Origin: Candidatus Rokuibacteriota bacterium | GTDB lineage: Bacteria; Methylomirabilota; Methylomirabilia; Rokubacteriales; JACPHL01 | Length of the DNA stretch: 8,620 nt | Reading direction: 5' to 3' | Assembly: GCA_016188625.1 (NCBI GenBank) | Contig: JACPHL010000100.1 | Coordinates: forward strand, 1 to 8,620 | In this document: positions 1 through 6,620 of the stretch, one piece after another | How positions within the stretch are numbered: position 1 is the first letter of the stretch | Layout of the letters: the number at the start of each line of letters is the position of its first letter | Position numbers and translations under genes: made by a program | Notes under the pieces: generated by a model | The model's input: only the letters and a program-made list of their open reading frames with translations | What the model was told of the DNA's origin: nothing | Databases searched by the model: none

Positions 1-469
1 GAAGGAGGGCTTGTCCCAGGTGGGGAGCCCGGCCGCCCGCGACAGCTCGCGGATCTCCTGCTTGGTCAGTCCGGCATCGAGGAGCGGGGCCGTGACCCCC
101 TTCTGCCGCGCGGCGACCATCCCCGGCCGGTGGTCGCCGAGATCATCGAGGTTGGCGCCGTAGACGAGGTGGGGAAGCCCCTCGGCCTCGGCGACGGGCT
201 CGAGGCGCGTGAACAGCTCCTCCTTGCAGAAGAAGCAGCGGTTCGGTGCATTCCTGGCGTACTCGGGATTCTGGAGCTCCTGCGTCCGGATGACGAGGTG
301 GCGCATCCCGAGGAGGGCGGCCAGCCGCCGGGCTTCCGCCAGCTCGGCGGAGGGGTAACTCTCCGAGTCCGCGGTCGCCAGGAGGGCGCGCTCGCCCAGG
401 GCGTCCCTGGCCGCGTACCCCAGGCGCGTACTTCTCGCGCAGGACCGGATCGAGGTCTGCCGAAGACAT
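1..469 (-). pseudogene. larE: LarE-type sulfur transferase, 5' end deleted and frameshifted, 3' end outside window
   Basis: LarE is the ATP-dependent sacrificial sulfur transferase that adds sulfur to the pyridinium precursor of the nickel-pincer nucleotide cofactor. From about 423 down to 1 one frame reads as a clear LarE. It contains RLGYAARDALGERALLATADSES, split here as RLGYAARD and ALGERALLATADSES, then RCFFCKEELF (cysteines at 237-235 and 228-226), YGANLDDLGDHRPG, and TWDKPSF at the window edge, just before the expected ACLASR region. The start is different. An ATG at 469 has a GAGGTG ribosome site 5 nt upstream and encodes MSSADLDPVLREKYA, a plausible LarE N-terminus, but in another frame that soon leaves LarE-like sequence. 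The LarE frame itself has no ATG, GTG or TTG before ATG at about 306. About 20-25 codons carrying the SGGxDS PP-loop are missing, so the product should not bind ATP. It starts 2 nt after the PfkB stop. A pseudogene and an assembly error both fit. No larB or larC is visible. Confidence 0.85.
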
Positions 470-471
470 CG

Positions 472-1380
472 CTACACCTCGACCTTCATCATCTCGCCGA
501 AGGCCCGGACGCGCTCGTCGATCTCCTTCGGCTCGAGGCGACGCAGGCGATTCAGGGAGAAATCCTCCACGGTGAAGGAGGCCATGACGCTCCCGTAGAC
601 GATCGCCCGCCGGAGCGCGGGCTCGTCCAGCTCCCCGTCCCGGGCCAGGACGCCCATGAAGCCGCCGGCGAAGGTGTCCCCGGCGCCCGTGGGGTCGAAG
701 ACCGACTCCAGGGGGTAGGCGGGGGCGAAGAAGAACCGGCCGTTCGTGGCCATGAGCACGCCGTGCTCCCCGCGCTTGATCACGACGATCCGCGGACCGT
801 AGCCGAGGATCGTCCGCGCCGCCTTCACCAGGCTCGGCTCCCGGGTGAGCTGGCGGGCCTCGGCGTCGTTGATGACCAGCGCGTCCACCTCCCGGAGGAC
901 CCGGAGGAGCGCCTCGCGCTTCCCCTCGATCCAGTAGTTCATGGTGTCCAGGGCGACCAGGCGCGGCCGCTCGAGCTGGTGGAGGACCTCTCGCTGGAGG
1001 TCCGGGTCGATGTTGGCGAGGAAGAGGAACGGGGTCTTCCGGAAGTCGGCGGGGAGGCGCGGACGGAAGTCGGCGAAGACCCCGAGGTGGGTCGCCAGGG
1101 TCGTGGCCTCGTCGAGGTCGTAGCCGTACTCCCCGGCCCAGCGGAAGGTCTTCCCGGGGGCGACCTCGAGGCCGGCGAGGTCCACCCCGCGCTCCCGGAG
1201 GAGGTCGAGGTGCACCCCGGGGAAGTCCTCCCCGACCACCGCGACCAGGCGGACCGGGACGAAGAAGCTCGCGGCGTACGAGAAGTAGGTGGCCGAGCCC
1301 CCGAGGGCCTCCTCGGCCTGCCCGAAGGGGGTGCGGACCGAGTCGAAGGCCACCGAGCCGACGACCAGGACCTCAGCCAC
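472..1380 (-). CDS. PfkB/ribokinase-family sugar or nucleoside kinase
   Basis: A 302-residue ATP-dependent kinase of the PfkB (ribokinase/adenosine kinase) fold. Visible features are the N-terminal strand VLVVGSVAFDSV, the substrate-side GGSA at 27-30, the VVGEDFPG turn at 48-55, NDAEARQL at 171-178, VVIKRGEHG at 199-207, and the second PfkB signature DPTGAGDTFAGGF at 229-241 with anion hole GAGD and catalytic base Asp235. Length is normal for the family. The start is GTG at 1380, with GGAGG 4 nt upstream. It overlaps the mtnP stop by 8 nt (GTGGCTGA), so translation is probably coupled. The substrate cannot be read from sequence. Next to an MTA phosphorylase, a nucleoside (adenosine-like) or a deoxy/methylthio-pentose is a reasonable guess. 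A phosphorylase product such as methylthioribose-1-phosphate would not need a kinase, so an adenosine or other salvage role is at least as likely. Confidence 0.9.
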   Translation of the reverse strand: MAEVLVVGSVAFDSVRTPFGQAEEALGGSATYFSYAASFFVPVRLVAVVGEDFPGVHLDLLRERGVDLAGLEVAPGKTFRWAGEYGYDLDEATTLATHLGVFADFRPRLPADFRKTPFLFLANIDPDLQREVLHQLERPRLVALDTMNYWIEGKREALLRVLREVDALVINDAEARQLTREPSLVKAARTILGYGPRIVVIKRGEHGVLMATNGRFFFAPAYPLESVFDPTGAGDTFAGGFMGVLARDGELDEPALRRAIVYGSVMASFTVEDFSLNRLRRLEPKEIDERVRAFGEMMKVEV

Positions 1381-2311
1381 GGCGCCTCCGGTCCTGGCCG
1401 GCCCTGCCCGGCCCCCGGGGCCGTGGCCGCGCCCGGTCTCGGCCCCCGGCGGGGAAGTACTTGCCGATCAGGAGGTCGAGGGCCCGCCGGGTGCGCGGCG
1501 GGAAGGCGCCCCGGGCGGTGATGACGGCGTCCTTCAGGAGGGACGGGCAGGAACAACTCCTCGGGTGGCTCACGGCCGGGATCAGGCGCCGGAGGACCTC
1601 CCGGGCGGTGGCGACGCCCTTCAGGAGGTTGGCGATCACCGCCTCGACGTTGACTACCGCCTCCGTCTCGTGCCAGACGTCGTAGTCGGTCACCAGGGCG
1701 AGGGTCGCGTAGCAGAGCTCGGCCTCGCGCGCCAGCTTGACCTCGGGCATGTTGGTCATCCCGATGACGTCCACCCCCCAGGAGCGGTAGATCCTGGACT
1801 CGGCCTTTGAGGAGAACTGCGGCCCCTCGATGCAGAGGTAGGTCCCACCCCGATGGACGCGGGCCCCCGCGGCGACCGCCGCGTCGTGGAGCCGGGCGGC
1901 CAGGTCCGGGCAGATCGGCTCGGCCATCCCGACGTGGCCGACGATCCCCGCGCCGAAGAACGTGGAGACCCGCCGCTTGGTCGCGTCGAAGAACTGGTCC
2001 GGGACCACCATGTCCAGCGGGCGCAGCTCTTCCCGCATGCTCCCCACCGCGCTCACCGAGACCACCCACTCCGCCCCGAGCTTCTTCAGCCCCCAGATGT
2101 TGGCGCGGAAGTTCAGCTCCGAGGGCATGAGGCGGTGACCCCGGCCGTGACGGGGGAGGAAGACGACCCGGCGGCCGGCGAAGCGGCCGACGCAGTAGGC
2201 GTCGGAGGGATCGCCGAAGGGGGTGCGCACCCGGACCCAGCGGACCTCCTCCAGGCCCTCCAGCTCGTAGAGGCCGCTCCCCCCGATGATCCCGAGGGCC
2301 GGCTCAGGCAC
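1373..2311 (-). CDS. mtnP: S-methyl-5'-thioadenosine phosphorylase (MTAP family)
   Basis: A 312-residue PNP/MTAP-family phosphorylase. It cleaves 5'-methylthioadenosine with phosphate to adenine and 5-methylthioribose-1-phosphate, in the cytosol, as part of SAM by-product recycling. Motifs: phosphate-binding GIIGGSGLY (7-15), RHGRGHRLMPSELNFRAN (54-71), SVSAVGSMREEL (85-96), the family block YLCIEGPQFSSKAESR (158-173), sugar-site GMTNMPE (184-190), and TDYDVW (208-213). The aspartates of TDYDVW match the adenine-binding pair of MTAP and argue against a 6-oxopurine enzyme. CSC at 253-255 resembles the CxC motif of some thermophile MTAPs. The core ends near residue 286 (LLIGKYF), the usual family length. 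The last ~26 residues are an Arg/Gly/Pro-rich tail encoded across the spacer and into the next gene. The start is GTG at 2311, with GAGGT about 7 nt upstream, overlapping the mtaB stop by 8 nt. Inosine-type activity cannot be fully excluded. Confidence 0.93.
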   Translation of the reverse strand: MPEPALGIIGGSGLYELEGLEEVRWVRVRTPFGDPSDAYCVGRFAGRRVVFLPRHGRGHRLMPSELNFRANIWGLKKLGAEWVVSVSAVGSMREELRPLDMVVPDQFFDATKRRVSTFFGAGIVGHVGMAEPICPDLAARLHDAAVAAGARVHRGGTYLCIEGPQFSSKAESRIYRSWGVDVIGMTNMPEVKLAREAELCYATLALVTDYDVWHETEAVVNVEAVIANLLKGVATAREVLRRLIPAVSHPRSCSCPSLLKDAVITARGAFPPRTRRALDLLIGKYFPAGGRDRARPRPRGPGRAGQDRRRRG

Positions 2312-4817: not shown

Positions 4818-4864
4818 TCACGCTGGTAGTACGTTCACACGCTCTCGACCCTCGGCCCGCGGCA

Positions 4865-4943
4865 GGAATGGTCCGCTCCGAGCGCGGGCTTCGCCCGCGC
4901 AACCTTGGGGGAGGCTCGGAAGGGGGGCGGAGCCCCCCTCCGA
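4865..4943. repeat. Two-hairpin dispersed-type repeat, copy 1
   Basis: An ~79-bp unit that recurs at 5221-5303 in the same orientation. It starts with ATGGTCCGCTCC. Hairpin A follows at 4882-4900 (stem GCGCGGG/CCCGCGC, loop CTTCG). Next comes the spacer AACCTTGGGGGAGGCTCGGA, then hairpin B at 4921-4939 (stem AGGGGGGC/GCCCCCCT, loop GGA). Outer arms TCGG (4916-4919) and CCGA (4940-4943) extend hairpin B, leaving one bulged A. It resembles REP/BIME-type intergenic repeats in layout. No open reading frame across it is credible. Confidence 0.85.
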
Positions 4944-5220
4944 ATTATTGTCCACACCCGCTGTGAGGAAGCTGTGCATAACCCGGTGGGGAACCCCAAA
5001 AAGCGCAAGTCGGACAAGCGCGAAGACCGCCTCGCCCATCCCGCGCACAAGGCCTCGGGGGGGATTGGCACCCGAGCGGGAGGCATCGGTCCCTCGCTCC
5101 ACACGCTCCGCGGCGCACCCGTCTGTGGCTCGCCGCGCGGGGCCCCTCCTGTTTGTTTCCCGCTCGCCTGTCGGCTTCCCCACCCGGCTCGCTCACGACG
5201 GGGACCCGCGCCGCTCCTCG
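4944..5220. other. Intergenic segment between the two repeat copies, no convincing gene
   Basis: This 277-bp stretch is bounded by the two hairpin repeats. Apart from the DnaA-box-like cluster near its left end, it holds weak inverted repeats. One is CTCGGG/CCCGAG (5054-5059 with 5071-5076); another is GAGCG/CGCTC (5074-5078 with 5095-5099). Short open frames on both strands run through it and into the repeats. They have arginine- and proline-rich low-complexity translations, no domain and no good ribosome site, so I do not call them. A structured RNA is possible but nothing matches a tRNA, tmRNA, SRP RNA or riboswitch that I recognise. Confidence 0.5.
4948..4993. promoter_or_regulatory. Cluster of DnaA-box-like 9-mers
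   Basis: TTGTCCACA (4948-4956) differs from the DnaA box TTATCCACA by one base. TGTGCATAA (4973-4981) is the exact complement of TTATGCACA, a consensus TTATNCACA box. Two degenerate copies, TGTGAGGAA (4962-4970) and GGTGGGGAA (4985-4993), flank it in the same orientation at 11- and 12-bp steps, about one helical turn. A short AT-rich patch (GAATTATTG, 4942-4950) adjoins. There is no long AT-rich unwinding element and no dnaA or dnaN in view, so an origin is unproven. A DnaA-binding or titration site is possible. Confidence 0.4.
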
Positions 5221-5303
5221 GGGATGGTCCGCTCCAAGCGCCGGCTTCGCCGGCGCAACCTTAGGGGGGAGGCTCGGTAGGGGGGGCGTCAGCCCCCCTC
5301 CGA
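5221..5303. repeat. Two-hairpin dispersed-type repeat, copy 2
   Basis: This is the second copy of the unit at 4865-4943, starting GGGATGGTCCGCTCC. Hairpin A at 5238-5256 has stem GCGCCGG/CCGGCGC and the same CTTCG loop. Relative to copy 1, one base pair is flipped on both sides (4886 G with 4896 C becomes 5242 C with 5252 G), so pairing is kept. Hairpin B at 5281-5298 has stem GGGGGGC/GCCCCCC and loop GTCA, so it differs from copy 1 only in the loop. The left arm of hairpin B contains or abuts the stop codon of the glycerate kinase (TGA, 5291-5289). The repeat therefore encodes that protein's last residues. Confidence 0.85.
5279..5299 (-). terminator. Possible terminator hairpin of the moeB-aminotransferase-glycerate kinase unit
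   Basis: On the minus strand a strong GC hairpin (GGGGGGC-TGAC-GCCCCCC) forms exactly at the end of the glycerate kinase gene, the last gene of its unit. No T-run follows, so it is not a canonical intrinsic terminator. It may act as an mRNA 3'-end stabiliser, a Rho-linked pause, or only as part of the dispersed repeat. Confidence 0.35.
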
Positions 5304-6620
5304 GATGAGAAGCAGGTAGAGGTCCATCAGGTTGGTCCGGGTCGCGCCGGTCACCACGAGGTCCCCGAGAGCGTGGAAGAAGGTATAGGAATCATTCTCT
5401 CCCAGGGCACGCCGGGGGTCGAGGCCGAGGGCCCGGGCGCGCCTCACCGTCTCCCCGTCAGCCAGGGCGCCCGCCGCATCGGTGGGGCCGTCGGTCCCGT
5501 CCGTCCCCGCCGCGAGGACCAGAATCCCCGGAAGATCCTGAAGTTCCAGGGCCGCGGCCAGGCAGAGCTCCTGACAGCGCCCGCCGCGGCCGTCCCCGCG
5601 CACGGTCACCGTCGTCTCCCCCCCGGCGATCAGGCAGGCAGGCGGCGGGATCGGGCGCCTGAAGGCGACGACCTCCTTGACGAAGGAAGCGAAGGCCCGG
5701 CCGACCTCTCGGGCCTCGCCCTGGAGACTCCGGCTGAGCAGGAGCGGGGTAAGCCCATGTCGCCGCGCCTCTTCCACGGCGCGCTCCACCACCAGCGAGT
5801 TGTTCCCGATCACGACGTTCAGGACGCGGGCGAAGAGGGGATCACCCGCCTTCGGGGTCTCGGGGATCTCCCTGCGGGCTCCCGTCTCGAGGTGGCGCCG
5901 GACGGAGGCGGGGACGGCCTCGAGGAGCCCGAAGCGGCCGAGGATCTCGAGGGCTCCGACGTAGGTGGAGTCGTCGGGGGCGGTCGGCCCCGAGGCGATC
6001 ACGTCGAGGGGATCGCCGATGACATCCGAGAGGAGGAGGCTCACGACCGGGGCGGGCGCGGCAGCCCGGGCGAGCTGCCCCCCCTTGATCCGGGAGAGGT
6101 GCTTCCGGACCGCGTTCAGCTCGTTGATGGTCGCCCCGGCCTCGAGGAGCAAGCGGGTCACCCGGCGCTTCTCCTCCAGGCCCACCCCGGCGACCGGGAG
6201 CGGGGTCAGGGCCGAGCCGCCCCCCGAGATGAGGCAGAGGACGAGGTCTTCGGGCCCCGCGGAGCGGGCCAGCTCGACGATCCCCTCCGCGGCCCGGAGG
6301 CCGCGCTCGTCGGGGATCGGGTGGCTCGCCTCCACCTGGCGGATGCGCCTCGTCGGGTAGAGGGCCCCCTCCTTGACCACCACCAGCCCGTCGGCGATCC
6401 GCTCCCCGAGGAGCCGCTCCAGGGTCTGGGCCATGGCCCCCGAGGCCTTCCCCGCCCCCACCACGAGGAGGCGGCGGACGCGCTCCAGGTCGAAGGCCCG
6501 GTCATGGACGACGAGGTGGGCGCCCTCGAGCCGGACCGCGGCCGGGATGAGCCGGGCCGGATCGCCGGCCTCGAGGGCCGCGCGGAAGATCGCCAGACCG
6601 GCGGCGCGCAGGTCGGGCAC
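5289..6620 (-). CDS. gckA: Glycerate 2-kinase (GckA/MOFRL family)
   Basis: A 443-residue glycerate kinase of the DUF4147/MOFRL type, which phosphorylates D-glycerate to 2-phosphoglycerate in the cytosol. Older databases label relatives hydroxypyruvate reductase (TtuD). The N-terminal domain has VVGAGKASGAMA (53-64), SHPIPDE (99-105), LISGGGSAL (130-138), NAVRKHLSRIKGG (169-181) and LSDVIGDPLDVIASGPT (197-213). The C-terminal MOFRL domain has AGGETTVTV (332-340), GRGGRCQEL (344-352), AGTDGTDGPTDAAGA (371-385) and ENDSYTFF (408-415). The final block reads TGATRTNLMDLYLLLI where relatives usually have TGPTGTNVNDLYLLLI, and the protein ends in SEGG, encoded by the downstream hairpin repeat. Start GTG at 6620 lies 10 nt after the aminotransferase stop and lacks a clear Shine-Dalgarno, so translation is probably coupled. 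With the aminotransferase it may serve serine, hydroxypyruvate or glyoxylate metabolism. Confidence 0.92.
   Translation of the reverse strand: MPDLRAAGLAIFRAALEAGDPARLIPAAVRLEGAHLVVHDRAFDLERVRRLLVVGAGKASGAMAQTLERLLGERIADGLVVVKEGALYPTRRIRQVEASHPIPDERGLRAAEGIVELARSAGPEDLVLCLISGGGSALTPLPVAGVGLEEKRRVTRLLLEAGATINELNAVRKHLSRIKGGQLARAAAPAPVVSLLLSDVIGDPLDVIASGPTAPDDSTYVGALEILGRFGLLEAVPASVRRHLETGARREIPETPKAGDPLFARVLNVVIGNNSLVVERAVEEARRHGLTPLLLSRSLQGEAREVGRAFASFVKEVVAFRRPIPPPACLIAGGETTVTVRGDGRGGRCQELCLAAALELQDLPGILVLAAGTDGTDGPTDAAGALADGETVRRARALGLDPRRALGENDSYTFFHALGDLVVTGATRTNLMDLYLLLISEGG

Follow-up and report, generated by a model that had tools for sequence, protein, structure and literature searches.

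In the assembled sequence, larE has lost 71 nt, a loss that removes the ATP-binding loop and breaks the reading frame. The gene lies at the end of an 8,620-nt contig, C224, of a Candidatus Rokuibacteriota bin; the whole contig is the window analysed here. We put the probability at roughly two in three that this Rokubacteriales lineage has recently suffered a frameshifting 71-nt deletion in its ancestral larE. Beyond what the earlier note on this DNA had described, the bin contains another larE of the same lineage, which is intact (contig C302), the window copy is the ancestral one, and its body is undecayed.

A larE gene without its ATP-binding loop

Position 1 of the window is the contig end, where larE runs off. 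The bin holding the contig comprises 2.6 Mb in 344 contigs (estimated 84.5% complete, 2.1% contamination), and its nearest relatives are Rokubacteriales metagenome genomes. The features discussed below are as follows.

1..59, no strand: end of the contig, the same sequence as C302:830-888; the assembly probably broke here between two larE copies
1..426, minus strand: LarE body lacking the PP-loop, open over 142 codons, CFFC (CXXC) kept, running off the contig end (TIGR00268, 169 bits; 88% amino acid identity to C302)
143..469, minus strand: ORF that opens at the normal larE start but is out of frame, 14 LarE-like residues followed by nonsense, 108 aa (start aligns with C302 MSLTDLDSGLREKY)
424..430, minus strand: deletion join (TACGCG / C / CTGGGGTACGCG), 71 nt including the PP-loop gone (25 codons in 49 loci versus 4 nt; C302 alignment)
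472..1380, minus strand: PfkB-family sugar kinase, intact, conserved upstream neighbour of larE (PF00294; synteny)
1373..2311, minus strand: S-methyl-5'-thioadenosine phosphorylase (MTAP), intact, conserved neighbour (TIGR01694 above cut-off; synteny)

The ATG at 469-467 is a normal LarE start reading MSSADLDPVLREKY. The ATG is followed by MSSADLDPVLREKYA and then by nonsense up to a stop at 143. The LarE body picks up at 423 (LGYAARDALG...) in a different frame, which stays free of stops through all 142 codons from 426 to 1 and matches profile positions 31-169 of the 259 in the LarE model TIGR00268 above its cut-off of 150 bits. The window copy thus has no single uninterrupted reading frame, as start and body lie in different frames, and SGGxDS is missing from both. 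This bears out the earlier note, which had seen an intact-looking start at ATG 469, a body in another frame and no SGGxDS. TAC at 417-415 does lie 52 nt from the ATG, as it had counted, and its resumption of the body at about 423 stands; TAC 417 is not the first clear body codon, since LGY is already readable at 423.

The size of the missing piece follows from the relatives. The spacing from the KY pair to the body Leu is 25 codons in 49 of the 49 loci measured (C302 counted in, some records occurring in two collections) versus 4 nt in the window, which gives a loss of 71 nt (3n+2), within the 60-75 nt that the earlier note had predicted. Its proposed alignment with LarE from the closest genomes shows one spacing everywhere measured, and C302 has SGGxDS, as does every Rokubacteriales locus for which the 5' part was read. 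CFFC is retained in the window copy; the third Cys of the CXXC-C motif is present in C302, and its place in the window lies past the contig end.

The ancestral locus and a second larE copy

Genes for ThiF, an aminotransferase, glycerate kinase, rlmN, mtaB, MTAP and pfkB precede larE in identical order in the genomes G002 and G003, and other members of the order have most of the ThiF-pfkB block before larE and usually larB after it. Because this upstream block is conserved in the order, the window larE is the orthologue at the ancestral locus; it shows little added decay. Other window genes align over near-full length with G002 and G003, so the contig is not error-ridden in general; no further lesion was found in the window's genes in that comparison.

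Two families of repeats occur in the window. At 5078-5217, between the genes glxK and rlmN, is a repeat of about 140 nt, of which the bin has more than 35 copies, about 87-95% identical. The consensus ends in inverted arms that match almost perfectly (GGGAGGCGTCGGCCCC / GGGGCCGACGCCTCCC) and folds as one long hairpin; the repeat is MITE- or REP-like. It has no Rfam match, and an Rfam search of the window gave zero matches. The first repeat is flanked by two direct copies (4840-4948 and 5230-5305, 82% over 65 nt) of another, about 65-100 nt long, which also occurs in 20-38 other places among the contigs sampled.

The intact larE of the same bin lies at C302:518-1369 (locus L006). Its product begins MSLTDLDSGLREKYERLLGVLRELGGVVVAFSGGVDSTFLGYAAREALGG and carries the PP-loop SGGxDS. 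Behind the gene is larB; in front of it are isochorismatase-type hydrolase genes and one uncharacterised gene. The C302 and window copies are each other's nearest relatives (grouping support 99/91), next to G003. Two peculiarities were seen on C302. Position 109 of its LarE body is Glu, versus Gly in 48 of the 48 relatives compared. In the gene before the intact larE, at about 1820, an in-frame TGA separates two well-coded halves (GTHGREAD*KDRRKSKG), for which a nonsense mutation, an error and recoding are all possible; neither half has a homologue in the loci searched.

The two copies may not share a cell. C302 could come from a co-binned sister population, in which case the population of the window would have lost its only larE. 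We regard this as possible, if doubtful. It would fit the 11% difference in bases between the copies, the different upstream context on C302 and the fact that nearly every other genome searched in the order has a single larE. Duplication of the remaining window genes was also checked as a sign of a second population, and none of these has a close second copy anywhere in the bin, which speaks mildly against such a mixture, as does the contamination estimate of 2%. The question bears on how the loss is tolerated and not on the lesion itself, and a mixture overlaps with the reading as a recent deletion.

Age and origin of the join

Over 141 codons, the window and C302 copies differ at 8 first, 10 second and 28 third positions (dN 0.067, dS 0.286, dN/dS 0.23). 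With G003 as the outgroup, the window branch carries 14 synonymous and 6 non-synonymous changes, and a further 9 differences, 5 of them non-synonymous, are ambiguous in their placement. Under neutral drift about 40 non-synonymous changes would be expected on that branch, by a simple ratio over 109 synonymous and 314 non-synonymous sites. The end branches measure 0.039 for the window copy and 0.11 for C302; the intact copy thus evolves faster than the broken one. By these substitution patterns, larE was under constraint until very recently, or is so still if the join is an artefact. As the codons of its body are open, its dN/dS low and its branch shorter than that of C302, the lesion is either very recent or artefactual.

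The sequence around the join bears on how it formed. When direct repeats mediate a deletion, a single copy is left. Both TACGCG copies remain, one on either side of the join. In G003, the nearest outgroup, the Lys codon is followed by TAC GCG CGG, which matches the window's TAC GCG C; at the opposite edge, each relative matches the window over 0-1 nt ahead of the Leu codon. The short-repeat deletion suggested by the earlier note is therefore rejected. A k-mer assembler needs a long shared stretch to collapse a region, and with homology of only 0-1 nt at the join such a collapse is not expected. The earlier note had offered a recent pseudogene or an assembly problem; that pair of options holds good, and a repeat collapse drops out as the form of the second. 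The absence of a collapsible stretch favours a join that was present in the sequenced molecules.

The last 59 nt of the contig (window 1-59) are identical to C302:830-888, versus 89% nucleotide identity between the copies overall and a longest identical run elsewhere of 40 nt; it is therefore probable that the assembly stopped at the point where the two larE copies were indistinguishable. Two of the bin's contig ends have exactly 141 nt in common, which suggests assembly with k = 141. The fragmentation of the bin, and the end of the contig 424 nt past the join in the same gene, count against a real deletion. A chimeric or faulty read, or a low-coverage local assembly step, might have produced the join, leaving an intact larE behind pfkB in the real genome. 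The contig end lies in larE itself, within sequence common to the second copy, and the absence of decay in the body is equally expected from an artefact. We nevertheless consider this explanation unlikely, and less likely than a real deletion: the join offers no shared stretch to collapse, the window's genes show no other lesions against G002 and G003, and k-mer assemblers normally discard one-off chimeric reads, whose multiplicity is low.

A recent deletion would have occurred in real DNA by the joining of ends that share little or no homology, stripping the PP-loop (SGGVDS in relatives) and shifting the frame. The normal start would then give rise to a nonsense product of 108 residues, and the locus would give no ATP-activating LarE. 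The loss might be tolerated since the second copy supplies LarE or since the organism can now do without the nickel-pincer cofactor; the C302 copy may cover for the broken gene if both are in the same cell.

Function and comparison with known LarE proteins

LarE cannot work without the SGGxDS motif, which binds ATP, and a CXXC-C motif for a [4Fe-4S] cluster is found in most members of the family (PMC9283937). With SGGxDS gone and the body out of frame, the window copy should yield no active LarE. It could be argued that an internal frame, e.g. from ATG 306, makes a PP-loop-less LarE-derived protein (the cysteine/substrate part) that is useful beside full-length LarE, as the body is constrained and another PP-loop-less larE with an otherwise open body exists. 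The essential role of SGGxDS speaks against such a protein, and the constraint is accounted for by the time before the deletion. The other case is a 5'-truncated larE at L071 6001-6711 in an Acidobacteria-labelled genome, away from pfkB and larB; its breakpoint and neighbours differ. It thus represents an independent event, and no family of LarE without the PP-loop emerges from one other instance, in line with the decay that the earlier note had set against such a family. A functional remnant is very improbable.

Neither larC nor larA was found in the bin. Relatives have larC shortly after larB, a place past both contig ends here, and larA is missing from many members of the order; their absence was therefore dropped as a sign of pathway loss.

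For annotation, the window larE should be marked as disrupted, with no cofactor-pathway call made from this locus. The significance beyond annotation is slight, the gene most likely being an ordinary pseudogene. If the deletion is real, it would be a clear, very recent loss of an ancestral orthologue in a bin that also has a relocated, faster-evolving copy.

Compared with LarE, the ATP-dependent sulfur transferase of nickel-pincer cofactor synthesis (TIGR00268; [4Fe-4S]-type, Thermotoga maritima, PMC9283937), the window gene shares the body above the family cut-off, the CXXC motif and the conserved place behind pfkB. It differs in that SGGxDS is absent, the frame is broken and the 3' half is not on the contig. 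The C302 larE, its nearest relative, has the PP-loop, accessory genes in front instead of pfkB, and faster evolution. The larE of L071 (QHYA01000009.1) likewise has no PP-loop and an otherwise open body, whereas it breaks at a different point and has none of the window's neighbours nearby.
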